NCBI GenBank assembly: GCA_022784465.1
Contig: JALFUR010000010.1
Location: 124,001 to 188,000, forward strand
DNA length: 64,000 bases
DNA from: Christensenella sp.
Lineage (GTDB): Bacteria > Bacillota > Clostridia > Christensenellales > UBA3700
Direction: 5' to 3'
The position numbers were made by a program, and so were the translations under genes. Of this stretch, positions 22,272 to 26,829 are shown piece by piece. Below the pieces are notes generated by a model. It made no database searches. It saw only the letters and a program-made list of their open reading frames with translations, and was not told the origin of the DNA. Positions within the stretch are counted from its first letter, which is position 1, and every line of letters begins with the position of its first letter.

Positions 22272-23843
22272 ATGATACAAGTAACAGACGTATTTTTGCA
22301 ATTTGGCGGAAGAAAACTATTTGAGGATGTTAATTTAAAGTTTACTGAAGGAAATTGCTATGGAATCATCGGGGCAAACGGTGCCGGAAAGTCCACATTT
22401 TTAAAAATATTATCAGGACAATTAGAACCAACAAGAGGAACAGTTTCTGTAGGAAAGAATGAAAGAATTAGTGTTTTGAATCAAAACCACAATGCTTTTG
22501 ACGATTGTACAGTAATGAGAACTGTTTTGCTTGGTTATAAAAAGCTTGTAGATATTATGGATGAAAAAGACGCCATTTACATGAAGGAAGATTTTTCTGA
22601 TGAAGACGGAATTCGTGCTGGTGAACTTGAAAACGAATTTAGTGAGCTTGGAGGATGGGAAGCAGAAAGTGATGCCGCATCGTTGTTAAACGAATTAGGC
22701 TTTGGTGATGAATATCATGATAAATTAATGAGTGAACTTGATGGTAAGCAAAAAGTAAAGATATTGCTTGCTCAAGCGTTGTTTGGAAATCCAGATATTT
22801 TAATTCTAGACGAGCCTACAAACGATTTAGATGCAAAGACAATTATGTGGCTTGAGAAATTCTTAATGGAGTTTAAAAACACTTTAATTATTGTTTCCCA
22901 CAATAGACACTTTTTAAATAAAGTTTGTACACATATTTGCGATGTAGATTACGGCAAGATAAACATGTATGTTGGTAACTATGATTTCTGGTATGAAACA
23001 AACCAATTATTGGCAAGACAAGCAAAAGAAGCAAATAAAAAAGCTGAAGCAAGAGCAAAAGAATTACAAGAGTTTATTCAACGTTTCTCTGCTAACGCAT
23101 CAAAGGCTAAGCAAGCAACAGCTAGAAAGAAAGAACTTGAAAAGTTGAAATTAGAAGATATAAAACCATCATTGAGAAAATATCCATATATTAATTTTGA
23201 ATTCACTCAAGAGATTGGAAGAGAGATTCTTGTTGTAGAAAATTTGACAAAGAAAGGTTATTTTGAAAATGTTTCATTTACTGTTCAAAAAGATGAAAAA
23301 ATTGCCTTTTTATCTGATAAGGCAACAACTATTTCTATGTTATTTGAAATACTTATGGGTAATCAAGAGGCAGATTCAGGAACAATTACATGGGGAAAGA
23401 CGATAACTCAATCGTATGTTCCACAAAACTTTGATAGTTATTTTGATGGGGTTCATAAATCTTTAGTAAAATGGATTGATCAATATTCTAAAGACCATAC
23501 AGAAACATATTTAAGAGGCTGGCTAGGAAGAATGCTTTTCTCTGGAGAAGAATCTCAAAAGGAAGCATGTGTACTAAGTGGAGGAGAAAAAGTTAGATGT
23601 ATGATGGCAAGAGCTATGCTTACAGGAGGAAACTTCTTAATACTTGATGAACCTACTAACCACTTAGATCTAGAAGCTATAACTTCTTTAAATAAAGGCA
23701 TGATAAATTATAAGGGAAATATACTATTTGCATCTCATGACCAAGAATTAATGCAAACTGTAGCAAATAGAATTATAGAAATTAATGGCACAAAGACATT
23801 TGATAAGTTAACAACTTATGAAGAATATCTAGATATGCAATAA
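22272..23843 (+). CDS. ABC-F family ATPase (YbiT-like)
   Basis: A 523-residue duplicated ABC ATPase without membrane parts, of the ribosome-associated ABC-F group. NBD1 has Walker A GANGAGKST (34-42) and Walker B ILILDEPTNDLD. Its signature is degenerate (ELDGKQKVK). The linker (about 240-300) is rich in Lys, Ala and Glu, as in translation factors that reach the peptidyl-transferase centre. NBD2 has a normal signature LSGGEKVR and Walker B LILDEPTNHLD, but the P-loop position reads LSDKATTIS without the GxxxxGK[ST] pattern. This loss is, to my recollection, shared with YbiT-like subgroups. It is not an antibiotic-resistance call. Confidence 0.9.
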   Translation: MIQVTDVFLQFGGRKLFEDVNLKFTEGNCYGIIGANGAGKSTFLKILSGQLEPTRGTVSVGKNERISVLNQNHNAFDDCTVMRTVLLGYKKLVDIMDEKDAIYMKEDFSDEDGIRAGELENEFSELGGWEAESDAASLLNELGFGDEYHDKLMSELDGKQKVKILLAQALFGNPDILILDEPTNDLDAKTIMWLEKFLMEFKNTLIIVSHNRHFLNKVCTHICDVDYGKINMYVGNYDFWYETNQLLARQAKEANKKAEARAKELQEFIQRFSANASKAKQATARKKELEKLKLEDIKPSLRKYPYINFEFTQEIGREILVVENLTKKGYFENVSFTVQKDEKIAFLSDKATTISMLFEILMGNQEADSGTITWGKTITQSYVPQNFDSYFDGVHKSLVKWIDQYSKDHTETYLRGWLGRMLFSGEESQKEACVLSGGEKVRCMMARAMLTGGNFLILDEPTNHLDLEAITSLNKGMINYKGNILFASHDQELMQTVANRIIEINGTKTFDKLTTYEEYLDMQ

Positions 23844-23945
23844 AATTTATCTAACTTTATTAAAATTTCTATAAAAATTGTATAAAAATTGTAAAAAAAA
23901 TATTAAAAATGTGACAAAAATTGCCAAAAATAAAATTTTCGCAAC

Positions 23946-23961
23946 ATTTTGTTGCAAAAAT
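23946..23961 (+). repeat. 16-base inverted repeat, left copy
   Basis: ATTTTGTTGCAAAAAT, identical to the reverse complement of 24301-24316. It overlaps a small GCAAC-ATTTT-GTTGC palindrome (23941-23955) just upstream of the sRNA promoter, so it may be an operator. Confidence 0.5.
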
Positions 23962-23972
23962 GCTAAAAAGTG

Positions 23973-24001
23973 TTGACAATACTTTTTTTTAGATTTATAC
24001 T
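23973..24001 (+). promoter_or_regulatory. near-consensus sigma-A promoter for a short RNA
   Basis: TTGACA (23973-23978), 17-base spacer, TATACT (23996-24001). No gene follows on this strand before the terminator at 24056-24089, so the product should be an RNA of about 80 bases. Confidence 0.8.
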
Positions 24002-24007
24002 TATCGT

Positions 24008-24089
24008 GTAAAAAATAAATAGCTCATAATTTTCCCCCTTATCATATAATTTGAGAGAGAGTTGCTATAATGGCAACTCTCTTTCTTTT
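24008..24089 (+). ncRNA. predicted small RNA, about 80 bases
   Basis: Bounded by a near-consensus promoter and a strong intrinsic terminator with no ORF of note between. The 5' half is AU-rich and unstructured. A C-run (TTTTCCCCCTTAT, 24031-24043) is single-stranded in any simple fold and is complementary to purine-rich Shine-Dalgarno regions, a common target-pairing design in Bacillota sRNAs. The 3' half is the terminator hairpin. No known family is recognised. The start point is inferred from the -10 position. Confidence 0.6.
24056..24089 (+). terminator. terminator of the short RNA
   Basis: AGAGAGTTGC (24056-24065), seven-base loop, GCAACTCTCT (24073-24082), then TTCTTTT: a ten-pair stem. 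Confidence 0.85.
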
Positions 24090-24113
24090 AATTGATCTTG
24101 TAAACTTTGAAAA

Positions 24114-24200
24114 TTACTTGCTTTCTTGGCTATTTCTTTCAGAAGCATTTTGCTTTTGATTTTTACAAGAACTTTGTTTTTGTTCTTTCTTATTGTTCAT
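24114..24200 (-). CDS. 28-residue Asn/Lys/Gln/Ser-rich micro-protein
   Basis: A 28-codon ORF whose ATG follows a perfect AGGAGG at seven-base spacing, which is rarely seen by chance in this AT-rich intergenic region. The peptide is strongly hydrophilic (about nine Lys/Arg, many Asn, Gln and Ser, one Cys near residue 12) and should be disordered. Tiny polar proteins of similar composition occur in many Clostridia without known function (from memory, not searched). It is convergent with the predicted sRNA and lies between the two copies of the 16-base inverted repeat. Confidence 0.6.
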   Translation of the reverse strand: MNNKKEQKQSSCKNQKQNASERNSQESK

Positions 24201-24300
24201 AAGATCCTCCTTTTTGATTGTATGATTATTATTTACAAATAGTTGCATTTTATTCTTTTTGTCCATAAATTTTTTTTTGAAAAATTACAAAAAAATACTA

Positions 24301-24316
24301 ATTTTTGCAACAAAAT
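24301..24316 (-). repeat. 16-base inverted repeat, right copy
   Basis: ATTTTTGCAACAAAAT, exact reverse complement of 23946-23961. A further GTTGCAAAAT follows at 24328-24337. It lies between the micro-ORF and the promoter of the SPFH gene. Confidence 0.5.
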
Positions 24317-24376
24317 GCAAAAATTCGTTGCAAAATAGACTATTTTACCAAAAACGGTACATTTTTTGACTATACA

Positions 24377-24406
24377 TTGACTATCAAAAATAAATTGGAA
24401 TATAAT
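24377..24406 (+). promoter_or_regulatory. promoter of the SPFH/zinc-ribbon operon
   Basis: TTGACT (24377-24382), 18-base spacer, TATAAT (24401-24406). This leaves a 5' leader of about 60 bases before the ATG at 24471, which has GAGGTGA. Confidence 0.75.
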
Positions 24407-24470
24407 GTTTAAGGACGTAATATTTTAATTATAAAATATTTAACGATTTATGTATTCATGAGGTGATAAA

Positions 24471-25508
24471 ATGGGTTGGTTAAAAGAACAATTTAGAAAA
24501 GTTATTGAATGGAAAGATCAAGATGAGAATGTCATTGTGTATAGATTTCCATTAGAAGACAGACGTGAAATTATGAATAAATCTGTTCTTGTTGTTAATC
24601 CTGGTCAAAAAGCTATATTTGTTCAAGAAGGACAAATTGCGGATGTTTTTTCTCCTGGAACATATAAATTGGACGATATTAAAAATCTTCCTATTTTAAC
24701 AACGTTATATAACTGGAAATATTTATGGGAAAGTCCATATAAAGGACAAATATATTTTATTTCTACAAAACAGTTTTTAAATAGAAATTGGGGCACTTCC
24801 AATCCAATTATAATGAGAGACCAAGATTTTGGTATGGTTAGAGTAAGAGGCTTTGGTACTTATTCTTTCAGTGTTGGAGATCCAACAAGTTCTATGGAAG
24901 AGTTATGTGGAGCACAAGGTATTTTGACTATTTCTAAAGTTGATGACTATTTTAGAAAGGTTATTACATCTACTTTATCTAACGTTATAGCTGAGTCTGA
25001 GATTCCAGCATTAGATTTGTCTATGCATTATGAGGAATTAGCTGATGCAGCAAGAGCAAGATTAAAAAATGATTTTGCTGAAATTGGTATTAAGCTTAAT
25101 TCTTTATATATTGAAAATCTATCATTGCCAGAAGATGTTGAGAAGATGATGGATAAGAGAACAAATGTTGGAGTTATGAACGGGGCAATGCAAGGCTATG
25201 CTCAAATGGAATCTATTGAGGCTATGAAAGACGCAGCAAAGAATGGTCAATCTATGAGTGGAATGGGAATTTCTCTAGGCGCTGGACTTGGACTTGGAAA
25301 AATGTATGCGGATAATATGTCTCAGGCTTTAAGCAGCGATGCTGATTCTAAGGTTTGTCCTGAATGTAATTCAAAAAACAAAAAGACAGCAAAGTTCTGC
25401 ACAGAATGTGGTTATAAATTTGTAGCAACAGAAAGGGTTTGCCCAGAGTGTGGTGCAAAGGTTCCAGGAAAGGGTAAATTCTGCCCTGAATGCGGCGCTA
25501 AGATTTAA
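24471..25508 (+). CDS. SPFH-domain protein with C-terminal zinc ribbons (YdjI-like)
   Basis: A 345-residue protein. An SPFH/band-7-like domain (about 20-240) is followed by a Gly/Met-rich linker and two C-terminal zinc ribbons (CPECNSKN...CTECG and CPECGAKV...CPECG, about 299-345). This is the layout of B. subtilis YdjI and the so-called virion core protein family. There YdjI acts in the PspA/YdjGHI membrane-stress complex. Here it forms an operon with a YdjG-like gene six bases downstream, but no pspA or ydjH is adjacent. It is probably peripheral to the membrane. Functional transfer is inference. Confidence 0.82.
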   Translation: MGWLKEQFRKVIEWKDQDENVIVYRFPLEDRREIMNKSVLVVNPGQKAIFVQEGQIADVFSPGTYKLDDIKNLPILTTLYNWKYLWESPYKGQIYFISTKQFLNRNWGTSNPIIMRDQDFGMVRVRGFGTYSFSVGDPTSSMEELCGAQGILTISKVDDYFRKVITSTLSNVIAESEIPALDLSMHYEELADAARARLKNDFAEIGIKLNSLYIENLSLPEDVEKMMDKRTNVGVMNGAMQGYAQMESIEAMKDAAKNGQSMSGMGISLGAGLGLGKMYADNMSQALSSDADSKVCPECNSKNKKTAKFCTECGYKFVATERVCPECGAKVPGKGKFCPECGAKI

Positions 25509-25514
25509 TAAAAT

Positions 25515-26597
25515 ATGCCAGAAAATGACGGTAAAAAAGAATTAAAAGGTAAAATTTATAAATGCGAGAATTGTGGTAGCATTCTTGTTTTTGATCCTGA
25601 AAGTCAAAAGTTAAAGTGCGGACATTGTGCATCTTTATTTGATTTACAATCAATTAAAAAAGCAATGGAATTGACTTATACTAGTTTTAGTGAAAAAGAG
25701 TATGAGCCATGGGGTGAGGCTAAATCTTACAAGTGTAGAAGTTGCGGTGCAGTAGTTGATTTTTTAGAGTATGAAACGGCGTCAAAATGTTCATTTTGTG
25801 GTGCGTCAAACATCGCTATGATTGATGATATTCCAGGATTAAAGCCTAATGCTATTTTACCTTTTGCTATTCCAAGAAATAAACTTGAAGAATATTATGC
25901 TAAATGGATGAAGTCAAAAAAGATGGCACCAAGCAAATTGAAGGATTTGTCAAGAAAAATGGATACAAGTGGTGTCTATGTTCCAATATTTACTTTTGAT
26001 ACATCTACTTCATCTTCCTATTCTATTAAGTATGGAATAACAAGATCAAAAACGGTAGGCTCGGGAAAAAATAGAAGAGTCGTTACATATACAGAATGGT
26101 ATTATGACACAGGATTTATAAATTTAGATTTTGATGATATACAAATTGAAGCTTCGCAAAAGATTTCTCAAAAAGATTTATCTAAACTTGGATATTTTGA
26201 TACAGAAAATTCTTTAGAATATAATTCACAATATATTTCAGGTTTTAATTCTGAAAGATATTCAAAAAGTCTAGATGATAGTTGGGATGATGCAAAAAAA
26301 GAAGCAGACGGAACAATAAGACAAAGGATACTAAGTAGATATCATTATGATACTTTAGGATATTTAAATGTATCTACGAATTATTCTAATATAAAATATA
26401 AATATGTATTAGTTCCTGTTTGGATAATACATTATAAATATAAGAAAAAAATTTATCCATGTATATTAAATGGTAGAACGGGAAAAGGTGTAGGTAAGGC
26501 ACCGGTATCTCCATTTAAAGCCACAGGATTAGGACTTGCAATTGCGGCAGTATGTGCGTTTATAATATATATGGTATATAAATATTTTATAGGATAA
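25515..26597 (+). CDS. zinc-ribbon membrane protein (YdjG-like, TFIIB-type ribbon)
   Basis: A 360-residue protein. There are two N-terminal zinc ribbons (CENCGS...CGHC, about 17-37, and CRSCG...CSFCG, about 74-96), a central domain, and one C-terminal membrane helix (about 333-357). The layout matches TFIIB-type zinc-ribbon proteins such as YdjG of B. subtilis, the partner of YdjI. The start lacks a clear ribosome binding site, so translation probably depends on coupling to the gene upstream. It is likely a membrane anchor for the SPFH protein. Confidence 0.78.
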   Translation: MPENDGKKELKGKIYKCENCGSILVFDPESQKLKCGHCASLFDLQSIKKAMELTYTSFSEKEYEPWGEAKSYKCRSCGAVVDFLEYETASKCSFCGASNIAMIDDIPGLKPNAILPFAIPRNKLEEYYAKWMKSKKMAPSKLKDLSRKMDTSGVYVPIFTFDTSTSSSYSIKYGITRSKTVGSGKNRRVVTYTEWYYDTGFINLDFDDIQIEASQKISQKDLSKLGYFDTENSLEYNSQYISGFNSERYSKSLDDSWDDAKKEADGTIRQRILSRYHYDTLGYLNVSTNYSNIKYKYVLVPVWIIHYKYKKKIYPCILNGRTGKGVGKAPVSPFKATGLGLAIAAVCAFIIYMVYKYFIG

Positions 26598-26622
26598 TAA
26601 TATAAATACGGAGGATATAACG

Positions 26623-26829
26623 ATGCAAGAAATTACAAAGGATATGTTAATTGGCGATGCTATACAAATAGGAAATTCAGATGCTATTGCTGAAACTTTA
26701 TTATCTATAGGAATGCACTGTTTTGGATGCGCTATAGCAAGAGGCGAAACAATAGAAATGGCTGCAGAAGTTCATGGAGTAGATGTAGACGAACTTGTTA
26801 AAAAACTAAATGAAGCAGCAAGAAGCTAA
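26623..26829 (+). CDS. DUF1858 protein (disulfide-oxidoreductase-like)
   Basis: A 68-residue helical protein with a CFGC redox-type pair (C33, C36) in the setting GMHCFGCAIARGETIEMAA, diagnostic of DUF1858. The family is often annotated as hydrid-cluster-associated or hybrid-cluster-like disulfide oxidoreductase, with no settled function. It has its own CGGAGG site and is followed by a terminator. It closes the SPFH operon. Confidence 0.88.
   Translation: MQEITKDMLIGDAIQIGNSDAIAETLLSIGMHCFGCAIARGETIEMAAEVHGVDVDELVKKLNEAARS

Follow-up and report, generated by a model that had tools for sequence, protein, structure and literature searches.

The segment at 24008–24091 (+) of a 64,000-nucleotide (nt) stretch of Christensenella sp. 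DNA (contig JALFUR010000010.1, positions 124,001 to 188,000; hereafter the window) encodes a predicted small RNA (sRNA) of about 84 nt. Its promoter, terminator and conserved core establish it as an independent transcription unit that recurs in many members of one order, Christensenellales, in shifting gene neighborhoods, and it represents a real and widespread sRNA family, itself undescribed but belonging to a kind whose mechanism is known. We consider it fairly probable, on computational grounds, that this sRNA acts in trans and blocks translation of sugar importers by pairing over the Shine-Dalgarno (SD) sequence and start codon of their messenger RNAs (mRNAs). The sugar-importer role is well supported computationally and probably correct, though unproven.

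The transcription signals in the window largely agree with an earlier note based on the same DNA. A consensus scan places a sigma-70 promoter at 23973–24001 (+) exactly as that note had proposed, with 11 of 12 positions matching (TTGACA at 23973–23978, a 17-nt spacer, and TATACT at 23996–24001); the sRNA start site was inferred from its -10 box. Where the note saw a ten-pair terminator at 24056–24089, we recovered an intrinsic terminator at 24053–24091 (+), with a stem of 15 pairs, including G-U pairs, at 24053–24085 followed by TTTTA. Folded alone, the 84-nt RNA forms one 15-pair hairpin and its 5' half is wholly unpaired (z-score of -5.0 versus shuffles); the central C-run that had been noticed (CCCCC, 24034–24038) lies inside the unpaired stretch.

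Conservation is concentrated in that stretch. A blastn search of the intergenic gap against 40 relatives returned a single matching block, at about 24015–24054, in the genus, the family and the order, and an exact 22-mer, GCTCATAATTTTCCCCCTTATC, was present in all 20 of the first loci. Together with order-wide matches and sharp conservation edges, this identity defines a conserved unpaired seed, GCTCATAATTTTCCCCCTTATCATA, at 24022–24046 (+). The core, GCTCATMATTTTCCCCCTTATCATA, turned up with at most 3 mismatches in 110 of the 297 genomes sampled from the order, versus only a few for a reversed-pattern control, and in a single copy in the window's own genome. It occurs in all sampled genomes of family f3, nearly all of f1 and f32 and most of f24, and is patchy in f14, f18 and f29; outside the order there were only scattered matches with 2–3 mismatches, at chance level. 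Named records with the core include Candidatus Borkfalkia, Pumilibacter and Ornithoclostridium, of which NCBI taxonomy assigns Borkfalkia to Christensenellales and Pumilibacter to Eubacteriales. Across 156 aligned loci, in which columns 0–19 were fixed by the search pattern and the flanking columns were free, conservation climbs from an A-rich stretch (position -6) to a G (-1), is near-total through CTCATMATTTTCCCCCTTATCATA, and then falls abruptly.

The surrounding signals recur with the core. Among 154 loci, an intrinsic terminator directly follows the core in 119 (7 expected) and a promoter scoring at least 10 of 12 is present in 124 (8 expected), so that the promoter/terminator pair sought in relatives was found, and the core itself is mostly unpaired (pairing probability mostly 0.1–0.3). 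Hairpin sequences diverge among clades. Within the genus, six pairs of the terminator helix have changed on both sides, 96% of cells are paired, and the pairing collapses when the alignment slides by one column. A covariance model of 41 diverse loci yielded no common pairs because the terminators were too divergent to align. These features are those of the general class of intrinsically terminated, trans-encoded sRNAs: an intergenic promoter and Rho-independent terminator of its own, conservation independent of neighboring genes, and an unpaired conserved seed that is complementary, by computation, to target mRNAs. The earlier prediction of an RNA of about 80 bases able to pair with SD sequences is thus strongly supported computationally, by conservation, by promoter and terminator statistics, and by target pairing.

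The genes beside the core vary among clades, which bears on whether the RNA could instead be the terminated leader, or attenuator, of the downstream SPFH gene. The sRNA does lie upstream of an SPFH gene in five of five genus genomes, but the same core stands beside unrelated genes in other families, and a separate promoter-like site, at 24377–24406, precedes the SPFH gene; we give this explanation practically no weight. It is also very improbable that selection acts on the minus strand, as the ribosome-binding site and start codon of a short peptide. The reverse complement does read AAGGGGGAAAATTATGAGC, and chance matches to it in Bacillus and phage contigs are gene starts of just this type. 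However, the antisense open reading frame (ORF) is short and variable (median 16.5 codons, often 2–9) with no conserved residues past the second codon, and it is the plus strand that carries the promoters and terminators; we therefore rejected an antisense peptide.

The same reverse complement offers a rationale for the seed. It reads GATAAGGGGGAAAATTATGAGC, a strong ribosome-binding site well spaced from AUG (AAGGGGG-AAAATT-ATG), and the Bacillus and phage contigs that match it exactly do so at gene starts on the opposite strand. Since the seed complement combines a ribosome-binding site with a start codon, the seed would be expected to cover both the SD sequence and the start codon of suitable mRNAs. 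Near-matches to the seed complement in relatives are often at sugar or nutrient genes. In genus g3 (L019/G011 and L020/G006), an MFS transporter gene lies near the sRNA, and the G006 transporter start, TAAGGGAGAAAAATATG, resembles the seed complement.

Pairing with sugar-transporter mRNAs was evaluated with 90 start regions of MFS_2 genes (PF13347, GPH sugar transporters) collected from 29 genomes of the family, the targets being sampled by family and pattern. Such transporters are unusually numerous in these small f1 genomes, each of which encodes 3 to 17 of them. Pairing energy with the core averaged -16.2 kcal/mol for 86 MFS_2 starts versus -10.7 kcal/mol for 54 window genes of similar anti-SD strength, and energies of -20 kcal/mol or below were reached by 21% of MFS_2 starts versus 2% of window genes and 5% of order loci. 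After removal of near-duplicates, MFS_2 starts still differed from other genes of the same family (p=1.8e-7 for energy; p=1.9e-7 for z against shuffled cores), and the signal persisted when the C5 run was kept and the flanks alone were shuffled (p=1e-7). The difference between MFS_2 and window genes, -4.59 kcal/mol, was reached by none of 250 anti-SD-like 31-mers from the window and by none of 150 shuffled cores. The strongest MFS_2 duplexes were those of L402 (-31.5 kcal/mol) and L463 (-26.3 kcal/mol); the best candidates in the window's own genome were weaker (L479, -19.9; an MFS gene in L212, -16.5), while L219, the orthologue of the latter gene in a congener, reached -21.5 kcal/mol.

These pairing results also speak to the idea that the core is a protein binding site, for an RNA chaperone or translation factor, or belongs to a decoy RNA, with mRNA pairing being incidental. 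A conserved single-stranded stretch is by itself no proof of base pairing, but the core is exactly complementary to a ribosome-binding site plus AUG, and its flanks, beyond the C-run, match the starts of sugar-importer genes. This explanation therefore appears to have a slim chance.

Several observations weigh against translational repression of sugar importers as the principal function. About four-fifths of the MFS_2 genes fall short of -20 kcal/mol, and within the window's own genome pairing is mostly weak, with MFS_2 starts reaching -19.9 at best and most staying above -11 kcal/mol. A core carrying CCUCC would pair at least equally well on average, so MFS_2 does not owe its separation from other genes to the C5 run itself. 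Start codons of the MFS_2 genes were assigned by rule, and the test with controls covered this one gene family, such that others could equal or surpass it as targets. A separate survey of 41 genes with GGGGG SD sequences in four genomes included alpha-glucosidase, dihydroxyacetone kinase (DhaK), MFS_2, a solute-binding protein, two GlgD and a sugar transferase, while 49 control genes with AAGGAGG were mainly housekeeping, the carbohydrate exceptions being starch synthase and a phosphoglucomutase-family protein. This carbohydrate bias is modest and partly confounded by expression level, and the flanks of the GGGGG-SD genes are no more complementary to the core than those of controls. We consequently discarded these genes as a clean target set and count them as weak support rather than main evidence.

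An alternative with a real but lesser chance of being correct is that the sRNA blocks SD sequences in trans across a broad metabolic regulon, as RoxS/RsaE does, with sugar importers being one visible part of its role and not the main one. The GGGGG-SD genes also include glutamine synthetase III, MetA, ABC transporters and lipoproteins, RsaE/RoxS acts on many metabolic genes via C-rich motifs (PMC5419742, PMC9266662), and a 25-nt sequence so nearly invariant suggests a large number of targets. On the other hand, the GGGGG-SD genes lack extra flank complementarity, and controls were run for MFS_2 only.

Comparison with catalogued RNAs revealed likeness of predicted action without kinship. An Rfam scan of the window RNA found no family above threshold. 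The only family at E<0.01 was the Listeria RNA rli61 (RF01485), with a full-length match; we treated it as chance, since its 29.6 bits fall short of the gathering score (50) and none of 15 homologous loci matched. RsaE did not match in Rfam at the gathering threshold or at E<=10, nor did RsaI in the Rfam scans. RsaI of Staphylococcus aureus is a trans-acting sRNA of about 111 nt that represses translation of the glucose-uptake permease GlcU_2 through SD pairing (PMC9266662), a mode of action resembling that predicted here for GPH transporters. However, no sequence link was found, the order and the transporter family differ, and the resemblance, as far as shown here, stops short of the CcpA repression to which RsaI is subject. 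RsaE/RoxS of Staphylococcus and Bacillus similarly uses C-rich motifs (UCCC in RsaE) to base-pair with G-rich stretches, for example the SD sequences of metabolic mRNAs (PMC5419742, PMC9266662), but it has several separate C-rich regions, whereas the 84-nt RNA has a single C-run inside its conserved 25-mer. The best reading is that the sRNA acts like RsaI or RsaE/RoxS while belonging to neither family. A literature search found no paper mentioning both Christensenellales and small RNA, and the seed sequence appeared in the literature searched only as coincidental occurrences.

Upstream of the promoter lies a possible operator, a 19-base-pair (bp) dyad, TCGCAACATTTTGTTGCAA, at 23939–23957, which has been conserved in the genus. 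It occupies the equivalent place in four of five genus genomes, where it is the genome's best match to TTGCAACANNNTGTTGCAA (0–1 mismatch), and takes a degenerate form in G001. In L002 and L003 the gene upstream of the dyad ends in a separate terminator, so the dyad is more than a terminator of that gene. The center of the dyad sits about 60 bp before the inferred start site here, and congeners add about one helical turn to that distance (60–72 bp), a spacing that would suit an activator. It was not found in other genera, as far as upstream sequences were read. The dyad corresponds to the upstream member of a pair of inverted GTTGC repeats in the earlier note; the downstream member, at 24315–24333, is also present but weak, with 3 mismatches to the consensus. 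This second copy lies upstream of the SPFH gene promoter at 24377–24406, and a dyad-like sequence precedes the SPFH gene in L002 and L003 as well.

The note had further suggested that these repeats enclose the sRNA and a micro-ORF in one small regulatory unit that exceeds chance. The sRNA and the upstream dyad do, being conserved, but the micro-ORF does not, and occurrence of the sRNA core in unrelated contexts elsewhere contradicts an enclosed unit. The 28-codon ORF with AGGAGG, MNNKKEQKQSSCKNQKQNASERNSQESK, is present as a sequence at 24114–24200 (-), but it had no match in four of four congeners at E<=10, is missing from the same place in them, and had no Pfam or NCBIfam match. It thus fails the comparison with relatives that had been proposed for it, and we rejected its reading as a conserved small-protein gene; it may be a lineage-specific gene or chance, and nothing supports a function.

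The gap containing these elements, estimated earlier at 630 bases, spans 23844–24470 (627 bases). Both flanking genes lie outside the unit: an ABC-F family ATPase at 22272–23843 (+; NCBIfam NF011646, 4e-179, below its cut-off) and an SPFH/Band-7 protein with zinc ribbons at 24471–25508 (+; Pfam PF13421, 5e-72). The latter begins a row, at 24471–26829, of an SPFH protein with a double zinc ribbon, a zinc-ribbon membrane protein and a DUF1858 protein.

Variation among loci hints at further diversity in the family. In some genera (L006, L011, L012 and L014) an additional inverted repeat, CTGTAAATAAG...GTTTACAG, lies 5' of the core, and the 5' part of the sRNA may have its own structure there. Some genomes carry several cores: three tandem copies in G014 (G014:C2:211953-212473), two close together in both L054 and L149, and six in G051. 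Such expansions may reflect specialized paralogues. In G207 a variant, CCTCATAATGTTCCCCCTTATC, is present in a dozen copies, many of them less than 200 bases from a contig end, and these copies look as if a repeated element carried them. A complete sRNA copy also occurs in a GenBank record named 'Bacteriophage sp.' (L393, MT835718.1), beside genes for thioredoxin reductase and apparent germination proteins; judged by its genes, this looks like a bacterial contig mislabelled as phage. Phage-borne copies were rejected on this basis and because IMG/VR matches were gene starts on the other strand. Matches in Bacillus and Peribacillus were likewise gene starts and were rejected too.

By controlled computation, the seed pairs over the SD sequence and start codon of MFS_2/GPH transporter mRNAs better than with other genes, and the geometry of the duplex suggests that it would block ribosome binding and so repress the importers. 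Other uptake and storage genes would perhaps be repressed too, and, in the genus only, a regulator at the dyad about 60–72 bp upstream of the start site could tune transcription of the sRNA. At core position 5, families are divided in many loci between CTCATAAT and CTCATCAT, a change that alters the start-codon region of the complementary site from AAAATTATGA to AAAATGATGA and may mark co-evolution with targets. Tentatively, and with somewhat more doubt than confidence, we propose that the sRNA is a post-transcriptional hub for sugar import in much of the order, covering many GPH starts, with a seed that co-varied with target start codons (CTCATAAT/CTCATCAT) and lineage-specific transcriptional control, here via the dyad.

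A near-invariant 25-nt seed across much of an order is unusual for an sRNA. Discovery methods based on RNA structure would tend to miss this one, because its only helix is a sequence-variable terminator. Members of Christensenellales are mostly uncultured, and if the control of sugar importers proves true, the sRNA would open nutrient choice in this common gut group to testing.
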